In this document: piece after piece, positions 9,648-41,218 of the stretch | Layout: each line of letters begins with the position of its first letter | Position numbering within the stretch: position 1 is the stretch's first letter | From: a virus | Direction: 5' to 3' (one strand) | Length of the DNA stretch: 48,371 nucleotides | IMG/VR virus record: IMGVR_UViG_3300050821_006030 | Coordinates: 1 to 48,371 of that record | Notes under the pieces: model-generated | What the model was told of the DNA's origin: nothing | The model's input: only the letters and a program-made list of their open reading frames with translations | Databases searched by the model: none | Position numbers and translations under genes: made by a program

Positions 9648-11090
9648 CTAGTCGACGGGAGCGTCGCTGCCGCTACCAGGCTCATCATCAGCTGGAACCA
9701 CGTCAGCTTCGGCCTGAGATGCCAGATCACGCGATATGCGGTCCACAGCCGAGCGCCAAAAGTCAGCATGTTTCTCGATGCCAAGGAATCGGCAGTCAAG
9801 CTGCGCCGCAGCAACCAGCGTAGAGCCTGATCCGGCGAAGGGATCCAGTATGAGTTCCCCTTTGACGGCGCTCGCCTCGATGATGTGTCGCATGAGCGCG
9901 ACGGGCTTCTCGACGCTGTGGATCTTTTTTGAGACGGTGTCATACTTCAACACATTGTACGGTTGAGGCTTGACCAGCCCGCGGCCCCTGTTGACCCAGA
10001 AGCACGGTTCATACGTGTAGATCCAGTTCCGGTTCGGGTCCCCGATTCCGCTAGTTTGCTTGACCCATATCAGGGGGGTTGCTTCGCATGTTCCAAAATG
10101 CTTTCGGAGCATGAGGTACACAGGTTCGTAGCGGGTCATGTGGAAGAACACGTAGGCATGTCCATCGGGCTTGAGCACCTTTGCGGCGTGCATGAACACC
10201 TCATCGAGCATGTCCATGATTTCCTTGGGATTATCCCCGTACATCGTGCCCTGGCTCGAGGCGAACTTACTCGAGGACATCGGCGCGCCCTCGCGGTACA
10301 TTCCTATCCCGTACGGTGGGTCAGTGACGATTAGATCGACCGATGCCGCCGGGAGTTGGCGAAGAAGGTCCCGCGCGTCTGCGTGGTAGAAGACTCCAAG
10401 ACCTTTCCATAGGGCTTTGCGGATGATTTGCCTTTGTATTCCCGAGGGAACGTCGGCTTGTGTCTCGGTATCACCGTCGAGAAAGTCTTCTTCCCCCTCC
10501 TCAGGTTCAGGACTGACTGCGTCCCCCTGCTTTCGCTTGGCGAGCTCGGCACGGAGGGCGGTTTCCTTGAGCCTGCGGTACCTTTTGAACGCCGCACTTT
10601 TGGTCTTCTCCTCGGTTAATTCAGGATACTCGTACAGACCTTTGGCCAGAGTAAGGTCCATAGAGATCGACCCGCCTGATCGGTCGAGCTCACGGGCGGC
10701 ATCCTCGATACCGTATCCGCCATTGCTTGCCAGAGCACTTCCTTTGTCTCCGTATCGTGCTTGTTTCGCTGTGTACAACTTGAAGAGACCGATGACTTCC
10801 TCCGGCCACTCGAGATCCTTGCGGCGTATGTTCTCTTCAAGCTCCAGCTCCTGCTTCAGGACGGGATCGAGCGCTGCCATTCTCCGAAAGGCAATCGCTG
10901 ACCAGCCCAGGTGTTGTGCCGCGAGGATGCGGCGGTGGCCCGCGATCAAGTTGTTCTCGTCATCGAGAACGACGGGCGTCATCAGGCCGAAGCGGGCCAT
11001 GCTGTTGGCAAGCTCCTCGACGTTCCCGAAGAACTTACGCATTCGGTTCCCGATGACTACATCTTTGATCGGTATGGTATCGTCAGGCAT
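9648..11090 (-). CDS. ParB/Srx-domain-DNA methyltransferase fusion
   Basis: 480 residues. Residues about 1-110 form a ParB/sulfiredoxin-like N-terminal domain with the box NLIAGHRRILAA. Residues 110-180 are helical (HTH-like partner region). A Glu/Asp-rich linker leads to a beta-class amino-methyltransferase at about residues 225-460, with catalytic DPPYGIGM before the SAM-binding DPFAGSGSTLVAA. The order (DPPY first, FxGxG last) defines the beta group of N6-adenine/N4-cytosine enzymes. It could protect phage DNA against restriction or mark it for packaging or segregation, and the target sequence is unknown. The start overlaps the upstream gene by 8 bp. Confidence 0.88.
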   Translation of the reverse strand: MPDDTIPIKDVVIGNRMRKFFGNVEELANSMARFGLMTPVVLDDENNLIAGHRRILAAQHLGWSAIAFRRMAALDPVLKQELELEENIRRKDLEWPEEVIGLFKLYTAKQARYGDKGSALASNGGYGIEDAARELDRSGGSISMDLTLAKGLYEYPELTEEKTKSAAFKRYRRLKETALRAELAKRKQGDAVSPEPEEGEEDFLDGDTETQADVPSGIQRQIIRKALWKGLGVFYHADARDLLRQLPAASVDLIVTDPPYGIGMYREGAPMSSSKFASSQGTMYGDNPKEIMDMLDEVFMHAAKVLKPDGHAYVFFHMTRYEPVYLMLRKHFGTCEATPLIWVKQTSGIGDPNRNWIYTYEPCFWVNRGRGLVKPQPYNVLKYDTVSKKIHSVEKPVALMRHIIEASAVKGELILDPFAGSGSTLVAAAQLDCRFLGIEKHADFWRSAVDRISRDLASQAEADVVPADDEPGSGSDAPVD

Positions 11091-16467: not shown

Positions 16468-16482
16468 TCTTGCTCCTTTGGT

Positions 16483-16522
16483 CGGCGCATCGCGCCGGTT
16501 TGTAGGATCTGCGGGACGCAGA
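16483..16522 (-). promoter_or_regulatory. Two-hairpin mRNA leader
   Basis: On the minus strand TCTGCG-TCC-CGCAGA (16522-16508) is followed by CGGCGC-GAT-GCGCCG (16497-16483) and then CCAAAGGAG, the ribosome site of the gene starting at 16467. The arrangement (hairpin, hairpin, AAAGGAG) parallels the three covarying leaders further right, although the sequence differs. Confidence 0.5.
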
Positions 16523-16554
16523 CCCTGGGTCGAAACGCAGTGTACCGCATCGCT

Positions 16555-18387: not shown

Positions 18388-18636
18388 TCACTTGTCAGCC
18401 TCTTGCGTGGGCTTGGTTCCCTTGTCTGCCACCGCCTCCGCGTGTTGGACGGCCTCGAGCAGGGACTCCGCGATTAGGCGAACGTCCGAGATCGGGGCGT
18501 GGATGAGGGCCATGAAGAAGTCGTGCTTCTTGCACGGCCCGTAGACGAAGGATCCACCACCGGGCGTCTCGACCTCGGTGGATTCCTGCGTCTGACACAA
18601 GCGTTGCATCGTGTTCGATCTGAGCCTCTTACCCAT
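18388..18636 (-). CDS. Hypothetical protein (82 aa)
   Basis: 82 residues, ATG 18636 with GGAGGTCCGCG upstream. A basic N-terminus (GKRLRSNTMQRL) is followed by a Gly-rich turn, GPCKKHDFFMALIHAP and an Ala/Glu-rich C-terminal helix. The gene is preceded by the two-hairpin leader element (copy 1). Function unknown. Confidence 0.6.
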   Translation of the reverse strand: MGKRLRSNTMQRLCQTQESTEVETPGGGSFVYGPCKKHDFFMALIHAPISDVRLIAESLLEAVQHAEAVADKGTKPTQEADK

Positions 18637-18667
18637 CGCGGACCTCCATCGTGTACCTCCTTTTGTT

Positions 18668-18716
18668 GGGCTGAGATTAGCCCTTAGTGGGGACTTCAGC
18701 GGTGTGAAATCCCCAC
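18668..18716 (-). ncRNA. Two-hairpin leader element, copy 1
   Basis: On the minus strand, stem-loop 1 is a 12-bp helix (18716-18687) with loop CACCGC. After 3 bases, stem-loop 2 is GGGCT-AATCTC-AGCCC (18683-18668). It is followed by AACAAAAGGAGG, which includes a ribosome site. The 5-bp stem, 6-base AATCnn loop and downstream CAAC/AAAGG are shared with copies at 20415-20476 and 21160-21233. Confidence 0.6.
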
Positions 18717-18722
18717 CGGGCG

Positions 18723-18887
18723 CTAGTCTTTGGCCTTTGCGTGTCTCCTCTTCTTCTTGCGGACCCACCGCTTCATCTCGCCTCCGCCGTGGTGCCACGA
18801 CTTGAGCATAGTCTCGGGCTCGAGTGCTCGGTCGAGGATTCGTGCGGCGGTACGCTTGACGGCCTGGTTGTCACGATGCCTCGTCAT
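18723..18887 (-). CDS. Small basic protein (54 aa)
   Basis: 54 residues from ATG 18887, overlapping the preceding zinc-finger gene by 17 bp. A strongly basic C-terminus (KRWVRKKKRRHAKAKD) suggests nucleic-acid binding. The N-terminal helix is amphipathic. ATG 18899 is an alternative start. Family unknown. Confidence 0.5.
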   Translation of the reverse strand: MTRHRDNQAVKRTAARILDRALEPETMLKSWHHGGGEMKRWVRKKKRRHAKAKD

Positions 18888-19011
18888 CGGGCTCGACATC
18901 GTCGAATGGATCCTCTTCGAGATAGCCGAACCCTGCGCAGGTCCTGCAGGGCACGCCGTTGACCGCCCCGTTGCCGTTGCAGTCGGGGCACTCCTCGGTC
19001 TCATCTTCCAT
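18871..19011 (-). CDS. DnaJ-type mini zinc finger (46 aa)
   Basis: 46 residues from ATG 19011, directly after the upstream TAG. It contains CPDCNGNG and CRTCAGFGY, the CxxCxGxG pairs of a DnaJ central zinc finger, followed by an acidic tail (EEDPFDDVEPDDEAS). Single DnaJ-like fingers of this size occur as small phage proteins and may bind host or phage proteins. The Cys pattern makes it convincing despite its length. Confidence 0.65.
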   Translation of the reverse strand: MEDETEECPDCNGNGAVNGVPCRTCAGFGYLEEDPFDDVEPDDEAS

Positions 19012-19272
19012 CTACGCCTCCTCGATCTGGATGTGGTAAGCCGTGAGCGGCTTGTTGGGCTTGCCGTCGGTCAGACGGATTGGATGGTTGCTGGGCACCG
19101 TGTTGTATAGATCGTAAGCTCCCTCGATAGTGAGTTGCATGGCCTTCGACTTGTCCTCGGTCCACTTGACCTCGCCGCGTCCATCGTGCGCTTCGGGATC
19201 GTAGGATTCGAGATACTTACCCTCGTCCTGTATGTCTCCTGTCGCGTGACCCATGCAGCGGATGACCTTCAT
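19012..19272 (-). CDS. Hypothetical protein (86 aa)
   Basis: 86 residues, ATG 19272 with AAGGAGAACG upstream. Mixed alpha/beta, with KAMQLTIEGAYDLYNTVPSNHP and a C-terminal strand (LTAYHIQIEEA). No motif is recognised. Its stop abuts the start of the DnaJ-type finger. Confidence 0.6.
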   Translation of the reverse strand: MKVIRCMGHATGDIQDEGKYLESYDPEAHDGRGEVKWTEDKSKAMQLTIEGAYDLYNTVPSNHPIRLTDGKPNKPLTAYHIQIEEA

Positions 19273-19282
19273 CGTTCTCCTT

Positions 19283-19630
19283 TCACCAATCCAGGAGCGG
19301 GCCTGGATCGAGCATGTGGGCCTTGCAGGCCCGGACCTCTTTGACCTCGCCCGTGTCGCGGCGAGTCACGAGCATGTACACGTCGAACGGTTGCTTGCAT
19401 GCATCGCACTCGGGCAGGCCGGATGCCCCGCCCTCGAACGCGCATTCCTGCACGTAGACGATCTGCTCGGGGGTGAGCCCGTTGTCCTCGGCGGAGATCC
19501 ATGCGTAGAGTTCGCCGAGCTCGTCGTCCACGAGTTGGTTGATGAGCTTGTCCCGTTCCTTGGACAGGCAATCGAACTCGTCGGCTAGGACCTTTCGCAC
19601 GAGCTTGATCGCGGCTTTGTAGGGGTTCAT
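19283..19630 (-). CDS. Hypothetical protein with zinc site (115 aa)
   Basis: 115 residues, ATG 19630 in an ATGA overlap. An N-terminal helical half precedes ECDACKQPFDV and ACKAHM, giving Cys and His ligands for one metal. The pattern resembles a small treble-clef finger. Function unknown. Confidence 0.6.
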   Translation of the reverse strand: MNPYKAAIKLVRKVLADEFDCLSKERDKLINQLVDDELGELYAWISAEDNGLTPEQIVYVQECAFEGGASGLPECDACKQPFDVYMLVTRRDTGEVKEVRACKAHMLDPGPLLDW

Positions 19631-19827
19631 ATCTCTCCTGTCAGCTTGCGGGTGGCCACGACGTATGCGCCGTAGGCCTCCGCGTATGCTCGTTGCGCCT
19701 CGTTTAGCACCGTCCAGGCGCGTTGATACTCACGCCAAAGAGGCTCTAGCTCAAGAGCCTGCTCTGGCGTGAGCTTGGTTGTCGGCGCTGACCCAGCCTT
19801 GTTGGCAAAGATCAGCGTCGTGGTCAT
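19627..19827 (-). CDS. Hypothetical protein, paralogue of the gene at 22142-22537
   Basis: 66 residues, ATG 19827. It opens MTTTLIFANKAGS, and the C-terminal helix (AWTVLNEAQRAYAEAYGAYV) resembles that of the 131-residue protein (ALRARNEADRAYNAALNAL). The two are probably diverged paralogues. No known fold is assigned. Confidence 0.55.
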   Translation of the reverse strand: MTTTLIFANKAGSAPTTKLTPEQALELEPLWREYQRAWTVLNEAQRAYAEAYGAYVVATRKLTGEI

Positions 19828-20138
19828 GGGGCGGTCTTGCTCACGAGGTCATCCACGACGAGCTTGATGTCCCTCAGGAGGTTGTGCAAGCTGATGTCCG
19901 GGTCGAGCCCGACCCTCTGTTGGGTCTCGAGCATGGTGTAGACCGTGCGGAGCTTCTGCATCTTGGCCCTGAAGGTGTAGCCTGGGGGCTGGATGATCTC
20001 AGCCTCGCGGCCGTAGGTCTTGGTGCGATCGTACGGGTCACACATCCACTGGCCGTTGTTGACCTTGTAGATGATGTACGGGACGGCCTCTTGCTTGACC
20101 CGGAAGACCGCGGCCTCGTGTGCTTTGTCGTGCGTCAT
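19824..20138 (-). CDS. Hypothetical protein (104 aa)
   Basis: 104 residues, ATG 20138 in an ATGA overlap. A beta-rich N-terminal half (YIIYKVNNGQWMCDPYD) is followed by a helical C-terminal half ending DIKLVVDDLVSKTAP. No family is recognised. Confidence 0.6.
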   Translation of the reverse strand: MTHDKAHEAAVFRVKQEAVPYIIYKVNNGQWMCDPYDRTKTYGREAEIIQPPGYTFRAKMQKLRTVYTMLETQQRVGLDPDISLHNLLRDIKLVVDDLVSKTAP

Positions 20139-20395
20139 TCCTCGCTCGTGTTGTTGATCGCGTTGACCAACTGGAAGTCGTGGACCTTGCGGAAGGTGCC
20201 CTCGGCGATGATGTCGGCCTCGATCTTTTGGCCGGGCATCAACTTGTTGATGGCCTCGTGGAGCTCCTTGGGGTAGGAGCCGTGCTCGAAGAACAGCTCG
20301 ATCTTCGTGTTCTTGGGCAGTTCGTACAGATCGTTGTTGCGGAAGGCGCGAACGGTCACGCCTGCCTCCTTGAGTCGTTCGATGTTGAGTAGCAT
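20135..20395 (-). CDS. Hypothetical protein (86 aa)
   Basis: 86 residues, ATG 20395 with AAAGGGAG upstream. The sequence LLNIERLKEAGVTVRAFRNN and the later LMPGQKIEADIIAEG suggest a compact alpha/beta fold. The leader element copy 2 covers its whole 5' gap, so its translation is a likely target of that RNA. Confidence 0.6.
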   Translation of the reverse strand: MLLNIERLKEAGVTVRAFRNNDLYELPKNTKIELFFEHGSYPKELHEAINKLMPGQKIEADIIAEGTFRKVHDFQLVNAINNTSEE

Positions 20396-20414
20396 CTTGT
20401 CTCCCTTTGTGGGC

Positions 20415-20476
20415 CGTGCAGCCCTGTCGTTGGGTGCCTGATTGCACCATGCATGGGGCTGGGCGACCAGCCCCAT
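20415..20476 (-). ncRNA. Two-hairpin leader element, copy 2
   Basis: On the minus strand, stem-loop 1 is a perfect 10-bp helix with loop TCGC (20476-20453). After 4 bases comes stem-loop 2, GGTGC-AATCAG-GCACC (20448-20433). The sequence CAACGACAGGGCTGCACG follows and is shared with copy 3. The element then runs into CACAAAGGGAG, the ribosome site. Confidence 0.65.
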
Positions 20477-20487
20477 CGGTGGCGTAA

Positions 20488-20679
20488 TCAATGCATATTC
20501 ATCGACCTCCTTAGGATCTCGAGGATGAAGTCGCGGGTCTTGTAGCCACGCTTCCGGGCCTCGGCGTCGAGTGCTGCGTAGAGGCTCGGGTCGAGCATCA
20601 CGTACTTGTAGCGGTTGACCGAGGTCTCCTTCGGTGGGGGCAGGATGAACTCAGCACCATCGCGGTGGCGTCGTGTCAT
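20488..20679 (-). CDS. Ribbon-helix-helix-like protein (63 aa)
   Basis: 63 residues, ATG 20679 in an ATGA overlap. After a basic leader, residues about 25-63 (NRYKYVMLDPSLYAALDAEA and the following helix) have the strand-helix-helix pattern of CopG/Arc repressors. A candidate operator-binding regulator in the early operon. Confidence 0.6.
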   Translation of the reverse strand: MTRRHRDGAEFILPPPKETSVNRYKYVMLDPSLYAALDAEARKRGYKTRDFILEILRRSMNMH

Positions 20680-20888
20680 CCCGCGACCTTGACCCAACCG
20701 TCACCGGTCTTGATGTAGTGTTGGCCCAGGCCGGTGCCCAGCCCGCGGCCCTTGGCGCGGTGGCACGGGAGGCAGAGGATGGCCCACGGGCCCCAGACTG
20801 TCGCGCCGTCCACGAAGTCCGTGGTGATGGGGTTGTGGCAGATGTTGCAGTCATCTGGTAGGGAGCCGTACCACTTCTTGGTTGCCAT
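20676..20888 (-). CDS. Small HNH/zinc-ribbon-like protein
   Basis: 70 residues, with ATG 20888 in a TAATG overlap. CNICHNPI and LCLPCHRAKG give two CxxC(H) pairs as in the zinc core of small HNH-type proteins, but the catalytic HNH helix is not convincing. The C-terminus is Gly-rich with short strands. Confidence 0.55.
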   Translation of the reverse strand: MATKKWYGSLPDDCNICHNPITTDFVDGATVWGPWAILCLPCHRAKGRGLGTGLGQHYIKTGDGWVKVAG

Positions 20889-21136
20889 TAGTCCACCACC
20901 CAACCATCGGCGAGTAGATCATCGACCATGACGGGTCGGCCGTGCGCGCGTGAGTAGTCCTCGTCGTAGTGCCAGATGTTCGCGCCTTCGACGAAGAAGA
21001 CCTTGCCGTTCTTGTCCGGGTCGCCCACGATCACGCCGCACTCGTTGGCCCCTCGCTTCTTCATCGGGCAGAGGGGCCATTTGGGCCAGCGGTTGGGATC
21101 GAGGATCCATTCCCGGTCTGTGGGTTGCGTTGCCAT
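20888..21136 (-). CDS. Hypothetical protein (82 aa)
   Basis: 82 residues, ATG 21136 about 9 bases after AAGGA. Trp- and Asp-rich (WILDPNRWPKWPLCPMKKRG, later NIWHYDEDYSRAHGR and DLLADGWVVD). No family is recognised. Preceded by leader element copy 3. Confidence 0.6.
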   Translation of the reverse strand: MATQPTDREWILDPNRWPKWPLCPMKKRGANECGVIVGDPDKNGKVFFVEGANIWHYDEDYSRAHGRPVMVDDLLADGWVVD

Positions 21137-21159
21137 TAGTCACATCCTTTGTGGCTGAT

Positions 21160-21233
21160 CGTGCAGCCCTGTCGTTGGGAGCTGGATTGCTCCAAGGATG
21201 GCTCTAGTTGGCTGGTCCGCCAGCCAGAGCCAT
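21160..21233 (-). ncRNA. Two-hairpin leader element, copy 3
   Basis: On the minus strand, stem-loop 1 has an outer 8-bp stem (ATGGCTCT/AGAGCCAT), a one-sided AACT bulge on the 3' arm and an inner 6-bp stem (GGCTGG/CCAGCC) with loop CGGA. After 4 bases comes stem-loop 2, GGAGC-AATCCA-GCTCC. The same CAACGACAGGGCTGCACG as copy 2 follows, then CCACAAAGGA. The middle pair of stem-loop 2 changes from T-A in copy 2 to A-T here. Confidence 0.65.
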
Positions 21234-21245
21234 CGTGTGGAGAAA

Positions 21246-21377
21246 TCAAGGCTGGAATAGAGCGCGTAGGATGATGAAGCCAATCAGAGTGAGGAATATG
21301 ATAATATCGTCCCAATCACCTAGATTGAACCGCCGCGCGATGGCGATGATGAAGAGGAAGGGGAGGGCAAAGATCAT
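21246..21377 (-). CDS. Small two-helix membrane protein (43 aa)
   Basis: 43 residues, ATG 21377 in an ATGA overlap. Two hydrophobic segments (IFALPFLFIIAIA and IIIFLTLIGFIILRALF) flank a short polar loop (RRFNLGDWDD). Probably a helical-hairpin inner-membrane protein made early. Function unknown. Confidence 0.6.
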   Translation of the reverse strand: MIFALPFLFIIAIARRFNLGDWDDIIIFLTLIGFIILRALFQP

Positions 21378-21601
21378 GCGTCGCCTCCGGTTGCGGCCTT
21401 GAGGTAGTGCTGGAGGTCCAAGATCAAGTCCTGGGCTTCGCTGGGCGTGAGCTTGATCGTGGGGACGTCGAAGACGCCCGTGCCGATGTGCATCCACTGT
21501 TCAACGCGGAAGTCGATCAGGGCCATGTTGATGGTGTTGCCGCTCTCGGTGAACTCGGTGTTGAGGACGATGCGCTCCGGGACCTTTGGAGTATCGCTCA
21601 T
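21374..21601 (-). CDS. Hypothetical protein (75 aa)
   Basis: 75 residues, ATG 21601 in a TGATG overlap (GTG 21604 also possible). The N-terminal half is beta-rich, followed by IKLTPSEAQDLILDLQHYL, which resembles the end of several small phage proteins that pair a sheet with one helix. No name is supported. Confidence 0.6.
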   Translation of the reverse strand: MSDTPKVPERIVLNTEFTESGNTINMALIDFRVEQWMHIGTGVFDVPTIKLTPSEAQDLILDLQHYLKAATGGDA

Positions 21602-22617: not shown

Positions 22618-22646
22618 ACCATAACACACGGTGGGTTGCCTGTCAA
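22618..22646 (-). promoter_or_regulatory. Sigma-70-type leftward promoter with AT-rich upstream element
   Basis: On the minus strand TTGACA (22646-22641) is separated by 17 bases from TATGGT (22623-22618). Upstream lies an AT-rich tract (about 22647-22685, with TTTTTTA and AAAATAATT) that could act as an UP element. It fires toward the 131-residue gene and the rest of the leftward operon. Confidence 0.75.
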
Positions 22647-39079: not shown

Positions 39080-39267
39080 TGGACGAGCGGTATCGTATCG
39101 AGATCGAGCACGATGGGGAATGCTGGACCGTCAGCTTCCCCAAGCTGCCTGGTTGCTTCGCGCGGGCTTATGACCTGCTCGAAGCAATCAGTGCAGCGGA
39201 ATTCACACAGGAGGACTATCTAGGTCGATACGCGAATGCCGAGCGATGGGGAGAGAAGTGTGGCTGA
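39079..39267 (+). CDS. HicB-like N-terminal domain protein (62 aa)
   Basis: 62 residues, ATG 39079 in a TAATG overlap. [20 protein letters not shown] followed by [10 protein letters not shown] matches the HicB antitoxin-type partial RNase H fold (xxFPxLPGC). No HicA partner is next to it. In a structural operon it may be a stand-alone decoy or regulator (inference). Confidence 0.55.
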
Positions 39268-41218
39268 CTTGATACAAGTCTCGCTTCCGCGACTGACAAC
39301 ACAAGATGCCTTGATTCAATGGAGTCGGCATCTTGTTGATACGTTGCAGGACGTCTTCAGCGGGAAGCGGATGGGCATGATCAGCCCCAGCGCCATAGTT
39401 GGTGGGGTGGGCACCGGCAGCGGTACTCCTGTACCAGGCCCGCCTGGGCCGAGGGGACCACAAGGTCCGCAAGGTCCGCAAGGGCCTCCCGGCTCGGGCA
39501 CGGGTCCGCCTGGGCCCGCAGGCCCGACAGGCCCCACCGGCCCGACTGGGCCAACGGGTCCACCGGGGCCGACAGGACCAACTGGTGCGGCCTCAACGGT
39601 GCCAGGTCCAGCGGGGCCAACTGGCTCCACAGGTCCACAGGGACCTAAGGGTGATACCGGCTCGGTGGGTCCGCAGGGGCCAACTGGCGCCGATTCTACG
39701 GTGCCAGGTCCAGCTGGCGCAACGGGTGCAACTGGCGCGACGGGGCCACAAGGAGCCCAGGGCGTCCCTGGAGCTACAGGCCCGCAAGGCCCAAAGGGAG
39801 ATCCTGGTGCAACTGGATCCACGGGAGCGACGGGTCCGACCGGTCCTGCCTCCACCGTCCCAGGGCCGGCGGGGCCTACGGGCGATGTGGGACCTACTGG
39901 CCCGCAAGGTCCGAAGGGTGATACGGGTTCCCAAGGAACAGCGGGAACCCCAGGTGCTCAAGGACCGCAAGGAGTAGCCGGCCCGCAAGGCCCAGCTGGA
40001 GCAACAGGTTCAACGGGACCTGCTGGTCCAGGTGTGCCTACTGGCGGTGCTGCGGGCACCGTTCTGACCAAGAACAGTGCGACTGATTTCGACGCGATTT
40101 GGGCCGCAGTTAGCGGTGGGGCACCGAGCGGACCCGCTGGTGGGGACCTCGCCGGGACGTACCCGAACCCCACGCTCGCACCAGCGCAGAAGAACCTTTG
40201 GCAGGTTGCGGGCGCGGCGCTCACGCCAATCGACGCGACGAAGGGTATAGCCATTCCAGGAGGCACTACTCATGCGTCGCTTGTGCTTGGTCCCCGTACC
40301 GTAAAGGGGCGTGTTTTTAGTGACAAGAATCTAGATGCGATTCGGGTGGTTGCCAATCGTGACCTAAACGCCGCCGAGAATGCGTGGGTTCAAGACGACA
40401 CGACGAAGCCGAGTTGGGGACTCCAGTTCGATGTGACCAACGATCGCTTCCAGATCGAACGGAACGCCGCCAACATGGCTTCGTCGGCTGTTCCGCTGGT
40501 GCTCGACAGCGGGGGCAACCAGACGATTACCGGGAGTCATTATTTGGGGGGTGGCTACGGCTCACTCCTCGCCGACGCGAATGCCACCCAGATTCACTTC
40601 AACAACTACGGCGCGCCTGTCGATCCCAGCAAGAATTCCTGGCTCATCCAGATGTACAGTAACAACAACTTCTACATCTATCGTCGTCCGCCAGGATCAG
40701 CAGCCGGCACACTCACGATGCCCTTTCACATCGACGGGGCTACTGACAAGACCTACTGCTCGCTTGCCAACGCTAGCGTCACGCCTGCGATGCTCGTGGC
40801 TGGTGCGACATATCGGAACTCGGCTTCTGCCAACATGCCGAGCGGTTTCAATTCGGGTACCGCGACGCTGAATGCGTGGATCCTGGTGGGGTCCGTCGCC
40901 ATTACCACCTCCGGTGGTCCAGTTATATTCAACGCAACCTGCTGCCAGTTGTTCATCGGTGGATCGGGGAATACGCAGCCAAATTGTTACGTCGGACTGA
41001 GCCGGGATGGCGCGGGTCCTGGCCCATACATCCGGATCAATAACTACACGACAGCGGGGGGAATCGCGTTCTATCATTGCCCGACGCAATTCATGTTGGA
41101 TGTTCCCCCAGCTGGTGCCCATACGTACAAGTTGTGGTGCTACCTCACGAATACCGCGTGGACCTTCCAAACGCTTACGGACGCACCGGGGTATCTTACG
41201 GTGTATGAGCTGTGCTAA
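39260..41218 (+). CDS. Collagen-like tail fibre protein
   Basis: 652 residues from GTG 39260, with GGGGAG upstream and an 8-bp overlap. Residues about 55-270 are Gly-X-Y collagen repeats, broken by short [10 protein letters not shown]-type inserts. [21 protein letters not shown] linker precedes a C-terminal beta-rich domain of about 330 residues ([35 protein letters not shown]), the likely receptor-facing or trimerising head. Triple-helical fibre shafts are known in phages. An upstream ATG (39236) is a weaker start. Confidence 0.85.

Follow-up and report, generated by a model that had tools for sequence, protein, structure and literature searches.

The DNA analysed here, termed the window, is an entire IMG/VR virus record (IMGVR_UViG_3300050821_006030; 48,371 bases) whose early operon carries three copies, W1, W2 and W3, of an intergenic RNA element. 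From comparative sequence it is near certain that these belong to a family of intercistronic two-state RNA elements, of which approximately 26 copies were found across 11 phage records, at orthologous sites and with compensatory changes in both stems. Its members have two helices that are both conserved yet exclude each other, and they are anchored at the stop codon of the gene upstream. The family is undescribed in Rfam 15 and in the open-access papers found; it is a well-supported structured RNA without an Rfam entry, carried by uncultivated phages from soil that fall into two unrelated types of genome. The best explanation of the element is an RNase III-type intercistronic processing site resembling R0.5, R1 and R1.1 of phage T7, a reading to which we give slightly less than an even chance.

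Each element consists, in order, of the preceding gene's stop codon with arm a, a hairpin (P2), a linker of ~3 nucleotides (nt), arm b, arm c, often a further hairpin (P4), the ribosome site and the start codon. Arm b comprises the 5′ strand of hairpin P3 together with its loop; P3 itself is the b:c pairing, with 5 base pairs (bp) and a loop that is mostly AATCNN. Arm a lies upstream of P2, overlaps the preceding stop codon and is complementary to the whole of b. The original prediction had described three minus-strand gaps, each with a hairpin, a linker, a 5-bp stem, an AATC loop and a ribosome site; all were found as claimed, and chance is excluded. The second stems (GGGCT/AGCCC, GGTGC/GCACC and GGAGC/GCTCC) were confirmed, with loops AATCTC, AATCAG and AATCCA, as was a further sequence common to W2 and W3, CAACGACAGGGCTGCACG. 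The CAAC said to follow the second stem needs one correction, in that the C of W1 belongs to the stem. Measured from arm a up to the base that precedes the start codon, the elements span 18728-18650 (W1), 20491-20396 (W2) and 21249-21137 (W3) on the minus strand, with linkers of 3, 4 and 3 nt and folding z-scores of -3.2, -3.2 and -4.4, respectively. P4, ahead of the ribosome site, is present in W2 and W3, and in the predicted minimum-energy folds of these two copies (RNAfold) arm a lies on b and P3 is not formed. Both hairpins of the proposed two-hairpin leader stand; the description was incomplete, since a third, competing arm makes the element two-state, and the leader position was mistaken, the element lying between genes and not at the start of the operon. 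The parts of the three copies are as follows.

18717..18728, minus: W1 arm a, GACTAGCGCCCG, holding the upstream gene's stop TAG (pairs with b)
18687..18716, minus: W1 hairpin P2, 12 bp (sequence, fold)
18668..18683, minus: W1 hairpin P3 (b:c), GGGCT AATCTC AGCCC (sequence, covariation)
18650..18667, minus: W1 tail and ribosome site, AAAAGGAGG (sequence)
20477..20491, minus: W2 arm a, TTGATTACGCCACCG, holding the upstream stop TGA (pairs with b)
20453..20476, minus: W2 hairpin P2, 10 bp (fold)
20433..20448, minus: W2 hairpin P3 (b:c), GGTGC AATCAG GCACC (covariation)
20411..20424, minus: W2 hairpin P4, GGGC tgcacg GCCC (sequence, fold)
20396..20410, minus: W2 ribosome site, AAAGGGAG (sequence)
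21235..21249, minus: W3 arm a, TTGATTTCTCCACAC, holding the upstream stop TGA (pairs with b)
21197..21234, minus: W3 hairpin P2, 15 bp with internal mismatches (fold)
21178..21193, minus: W3 hairpin P3 (b:c), GGAGC AATCCA GCTCC (covariance model, 39.3 bits, outside the training set)
21153..21168, minus: W3 hairpin P4, GGCTG cacgat CAGCC (sequence)
21137..21152, minus: W3 ribosome site, AAAGGA (sequence)

Relatives were gathered by searching with a PD-(D/E)XK nuclease, which yielded about a dozen related contigs, while a search with the core pattern led to an unrelated 95-kilobase (kb) phage, G001, with two exact copies at first and six later. Early scans for the architecture were not selective enough, given the high G+C content of the DNA, reversed controls giving as many matches as the real sequence; the scan was then filtered on proximity and ribosome site, and a covariance model was applied last. 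The filtered scan returned 12 matches on the sense strand, compared with 2 on the antisense strand and 0-1 when reversed controls were scanned. Across an alignment of 16 copies, P2 and P3 were 91% paired compared with 62.5% after shuffling (covariation score 0.709 versus 0.189), and a shift of 1-3 columns in the register of pairing collapsed the paired share from 91% to 31-52%. A covariance model of P2 and P3 trained on the 16 aligned copies recovered copies outside its training set, the five best with E of ~4e-9 to 5e-6; scores were 48 bits for L037 1551, 46 for L039 1651, 39 for W3, 35 for G1a and 29 for L036 4243, and later copies outside the training set scored 53 bits (L052 9434) and 43 bits (L052 12114). 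Whole-record searches at E < 1e-4 gave 1-6 matches per genome, all at known sites except for one antisense echo. In a 23-copy alignment, which was fitted to the structure, 98% of cells pair and two-sided changes occur in 9/9 P2 pairs; pairing is kept in P2 and no sequence is conserved. Thus the prediction of a selected RNA structure is strongly supported by the covariance model, by further copies in 5′ gaps and by compensatory changes, and the covariance-model search of relatives that had been proposed as its check was positive.

The small gene downstream of W2 has orthologs in 8 other phages (22-60% identity), with the element directly upstream in each. A second orthologous element site is shared by L003, L040 and L041, together with L052 (judged by protein start), and the W1 site recurs in L037 and, judged by protein start, in L036. 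Divergence in the alignment of the site-A protein was too great for it to be used in scanning. In the 95-kb phage (L026 6000-11700) an element stands before each of six consecutive genes, including one for a MoxR-like ATPase and one for a VWA-like protein (both names are our reading of the sequence); here b and c are almost constant and P2 is variable. Pattern matches in L010, L011, L013, L014, L017 and L018 look like chance occurrences in coding regions, and the full architecture is absent from L012, L015, L016, L053 and L055. An exact search of viral contigs with the shared 18-mer gave no match. No family of Rfam 15 reaches its gathering cut-off in the window, the sole match in six relatives is a tRNA, and a permissive Rfam scan of 18500-21400 gave weak off-target matches only. 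DNA-level roles are not favoured; the copies follow gene orientation and sit just before ribosome sites.

The a:b and b:c pairings were assessed by permutation in 21 hand-delimited elements, each checked letter for letter; related copies are not independent, and the permutation counts are therefore not strict probabilities. Arm a bound its own partner at -10.23 kcal/mol compared with -7.36 kcal/mol for swapped partners (0/20000 permutations). For b:c the count was likewise 0/20000 and the own partner was best in 21/21. Negative controls in the same elements, pairing the loop with c and a with the tail, gave no signal. The a:b result was also 0/20000 in 17 elements found without requiring a:b and in an enlarged set of 25, of which the ten with non-AATC loops alone gave 8/20000. 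Taken by itself, the a:b helix is 83% paired, with a covariation score of 0.462 compared with 0.171 after shuffling. Changes in the loop or b segment are matched in arm a (AATC/GATT, TATCTT/AAGATA, TATCCC/GGGATA, AAGTC/GACTT, TCAAC/GTTGA and ACTTAC/GTGAGT), and a further matched change, CGTT/AACG, occurs in the out-of-sample copy L052 12114. Alignment column 56, in b, pairs in 16/16 copies with column 9 (a) and in 16/16 with column 69 (c), with compensatory changes to both. P2, P3 and the a:b helix, as well as the orientation, position and conservation of the element, are read from such comparison of the copies. Arms a and c, almost identical to each other, compete for b, and since b is unable to pair with both, exchange between two states is the simplest reading.

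In predicted ensembles of the free RNA, a:b holds 6.5 pairs and b:c 1.0; with arm a masked, b:c forms (4.2 pairs) and the predicted fold flips in most elements. The free-energy balance and the effects of masking or cutting are predicted quantities throughout. Exclusive a:b and b:c states are favoured over a simultaneous pseudoknot, with a on the loop while P3 stands; the steric fit of such a pseudoknot would be tight, and the additional tendency of a to match the P3 5′ strand is, taken alone, only weakly significant (779/20000). A pseudoknot may nevertheless form transiently. Ribosome-site accessibility in the predicted folds was 0.60 in the free and 0.62 in the a-masked state (Wilcoxon p = 0.29), and a switch that sequesters the ribosome site was rejected on these folds. 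This weighs against simple translational on/off control, and the suggestion that the structure regulates translation by exposing or hiding that site finds no support in the folding.

Pairing of a with b extends P2 into a single hairpin of ~20 bp with a ~3x3 internal loop. This hairpin is strikingly uniform. Over 23 elements, the lower helix has a median of 10 rungs, P2 of 11 bp and the whole of 19 bp; most copies have a P2 of 10-13 bp and 3 nt on the 3′ strand of the internal loop. In 21/23 copies the upstream stop codon is placed -9 to +2 nt from the first a:b pair, and the median distance from stop to P2 is 11 nt. Regarding the exceptional contexts, copy G1a has no upstream gene end within 70 nt, and in L003a the preceding gene is below the length cut-off of the stop-codon test, its stop nonetheless falling inside arm a. 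No promoter or terminator was found within the window elements, which sets them apart from transcription attenuators.

The processing-site option of the original prediction fits this anatomy best, and as a mechanism the element is most likely a variant of the phage intercistronic processing sites. The extended hairpin would be a substrate for the double-strand-specific RNase III of the host. A cut in the 3′ linker, the 3′ strand of the internal loop, would split the upstream from the downstream message. The former would retain P2 as a protective 3′ hairpin immediately past its stop codon, whereas the latter would begin at b, having lost a, and fold b with c to place P3 at its extreme 5′ end. 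On this scheme a:b would be the form before and b:c the form after cutting. Such a linker cut would explain why both helices are kept, why P2 stems are random in sequence but perfectly paired (expected if double-strandedness alone matters) and why the ribosome site is unaltered. The last point, the lack of promoters and terminators in the elements and the occurrence of G1a without a nearby upstream gene end are all counted in favour of processing. In the predicted product, P3 occupies the first nucleotides in 19/21 copies, and Emory and colleagues reportedly found in 1992 that 5′-terminal stem-loops stabilise mRNA (reference 39 of PMC5371410). An mRNA left with a folded 3′ end by a single cut has likewise been reported to be stabilised (PMC6993053). 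If the element is a processing site, one unit of ~90 nt would combine the cutting of a polycistronic message with a protective hairpin for both new ends, which would refine the T7 model. Cleavage by RNase III, end protection and any regulatory consequence are inferred.

Several observations weigh against processing. P3 is not stable in the predicted cut products of W1 and L003b, and a duplex of ~19-20 bp is close to the lower size limit of RNase III. No RNase III gene was found in the 7 element-carrying phages checked, so a host enzyme has to be assumed. Tight anchoring at the stop codon is not needed by the model, although it is explicable by gene packing and is shared by T7 R0.5 and R1.

The early-region RNase III sites of T7 are among the closest known systems. 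R1.1, located between genes 1.0 and 1.1, contains an internal loop of 4/5 nt and is cut at its site a to give 47 + 13 nt (PMC6121014). Like the T7 R sites, the element lies between early genes, places an upper helix of ~10 bp, an internal loop and a lower helix close to the next ribosome site, and amounts to a ~20-bp intercistronic hairpin with an internal loop. We folded R0.5, R1 and R1.1 likewise, at positions that we take to be theirs, the T7 record carrying no annotation of them; each shows two helices about an internal loop, and in R0.5 and R1 the structure starts at the stop codon of the gene before. In these folds a hairpin comparable to P3 follows R1.1 and, weakly, R1 only. In contrast to the T7 sites, with which no sequence similarity was seen, the element has a conserved strong alternative partner, c, for its 3′ arm (b:c 100% paired).

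Another account, which we regard as possible but on balance improbable, makes the element a new class of intergenic RNA switch, recurrent in phages, that senses by attenuator logic a ribosome terminating at the preceding stop codon. While a ribosome covered a, with P2 just past its leading edge, b:c would form; once it had gone, a would displace c to give the long hairpin, and the state would report upstream translation to the downstream gene, to polymerase or to an RNase. It is still to be taken seriously as a rival, since the footprint of such a ribosome falls on arm a. The stop-codon position, the near identity of a and c and the predicted flip on masking a all speak for it. The element has a parallel in the trp and his attenuator leaders, where 1:2 and 2:3 helices are exclusive and a ribosome at a stop codon can mask arm 1; unlike those leaders, the element lies between genes and has neither leader peptide nor terminator. 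Its weak point is the missing output, given the equal ribosome-site accessibility, the lack of a terminator and the failure to find a conserved partner for arm c downstream. Moreover, G1a has no gene ending nearby upstream, and gene packing by itself would put the element at a stop codon. If it does sense ribosomes, the element would represent a translation-coupled switch of a new kind.

Recognition of P3 (consensus GC-AAUCNN-GC) by a phage or host protein that regulates translation or decay, with a:b concealing the site, is unlikely. The AATCNN loop recurs in most copies and, in the 95-kb phage, b and c are nearly constant while P2 varies, but the loops TATCTT, ATCCCC, AAGTC, AACCT, ACTTAC and ACGTT come with matching changes in arm a, so the loop sequence seems to serve pairing. 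A simple structured spacer that blocks Rho or ribosome scanning would suit an element that occupies the whole gap without affecting the ribosome site; it would leave two conserved, mutually exclusive helices unexplained, and we consider it quite unlikely. We think it very improbable that the element acts in cis as an antitermination RNA like put of HK022, in which two hairpins bind RNA polymerase and bring about terminator read-through. The ~70-nt putRNA does have two stem-loops in early transcripts (PMC9378689), and two neighbouring hairpins in an early operon are likewise found here. However, the put sites of HK022 are two in number and follow its early promoters, whereas here up to 6 copies per genome each precede an individual gene; P2 sequences are unconstrained, arm a would go unexplained, and in copy number, position and sequence constraints the element falls outside the put class. 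To our knowledge, put has no competing arm.

Among other repeated phage elements, the SAS/ESAS sequences of Cluster K mycobacteriophages stand upstream of many genes, with a 17-bp imperfect inverted repeat by the start site, and are conserved with gene families, their function being unknown (PMC3203893). The element resembles them in its repetition ahead of many phage genes and in having an inverted repeat near the start site. It differs in that SAS has a fixed sequence of 13 bp (GGGATAGGAGCCC) and a consensus sequence exists for the arms of ESAS, whereas P2 has none and a second, competing helix is present; the 13-bp SAS is absent from the tails of 21/21 curated elements.

The genes that follow the window copies, a short frame, and a tentative fourth copy (W0) are as follows.

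18388-18636, minus: 82-amino-acid gene after W1, ATG at 18636
18649-18630, minus: six-codon frame MEVRDG (ATG GAG GTC CGC GAT GGG TAA), ATG at 18649
20135-20395, minus: 86-amino-acid gene after W2, start at 20395, conserved in 9 phages
20888-21136, minus: 82-amino-acid gene after W3, start at 21136
16468..16542, minus: W0, weak candidate copy with arm CACTGCG, P2 AGGGTCTGCGtccCGCAGATCCT, P3 CGGCGcgatgCGCCG and AAAGGAG before GTG 16467 (architecture scan)

W0 is held tentative because the covariance model did not recover it. The six-codon frame follows the W1 ribosome site and precedes the 82-amino-acid gene, its stop overlapping the ATG of that gene, and the L037 ortholog has a 13-codon frame at the matching position. 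In another copy (L036 4243-4325) a hairpin is inserted in the P3 loop (GGCGGcataCCGCC). An AATC-loop hairpin with no clear arm a apparently occurs in two promoter-proximal leaders (L006 position 254, and L038), a few anecdotal cases that would be expected if P3 were merely a 5′-end structure.

The window phage is remote from cultured phages (polymerase <30% and terminase <=~40% identity to the best matches), among which a near-identity search with the window gave no match; a host search among genomes returned weak archaeal partial matches only. A sigma-70-like promoter at 22646 heads its early genes, which lie on the minus strand. The leaders of the first early genes, in the window (22617-22538, minus) and in L036, L040 and L052, end in a short G+C-rich hairpin that abuts GAAAGG/AAAGGAG and resembles P4. 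The early operon of a relative contains a tRNA gene (L003 3269-3339, Rfam). Elsewhere in the window, 9648-11090 (minus) encodes a single protein in which a ParB-like N-terminal part is fused to a DNA methyltransferase (PHROGs), and a predicted tail-region protein at 39236-41218 carries long collagen-like Gly-X-Y repeats.

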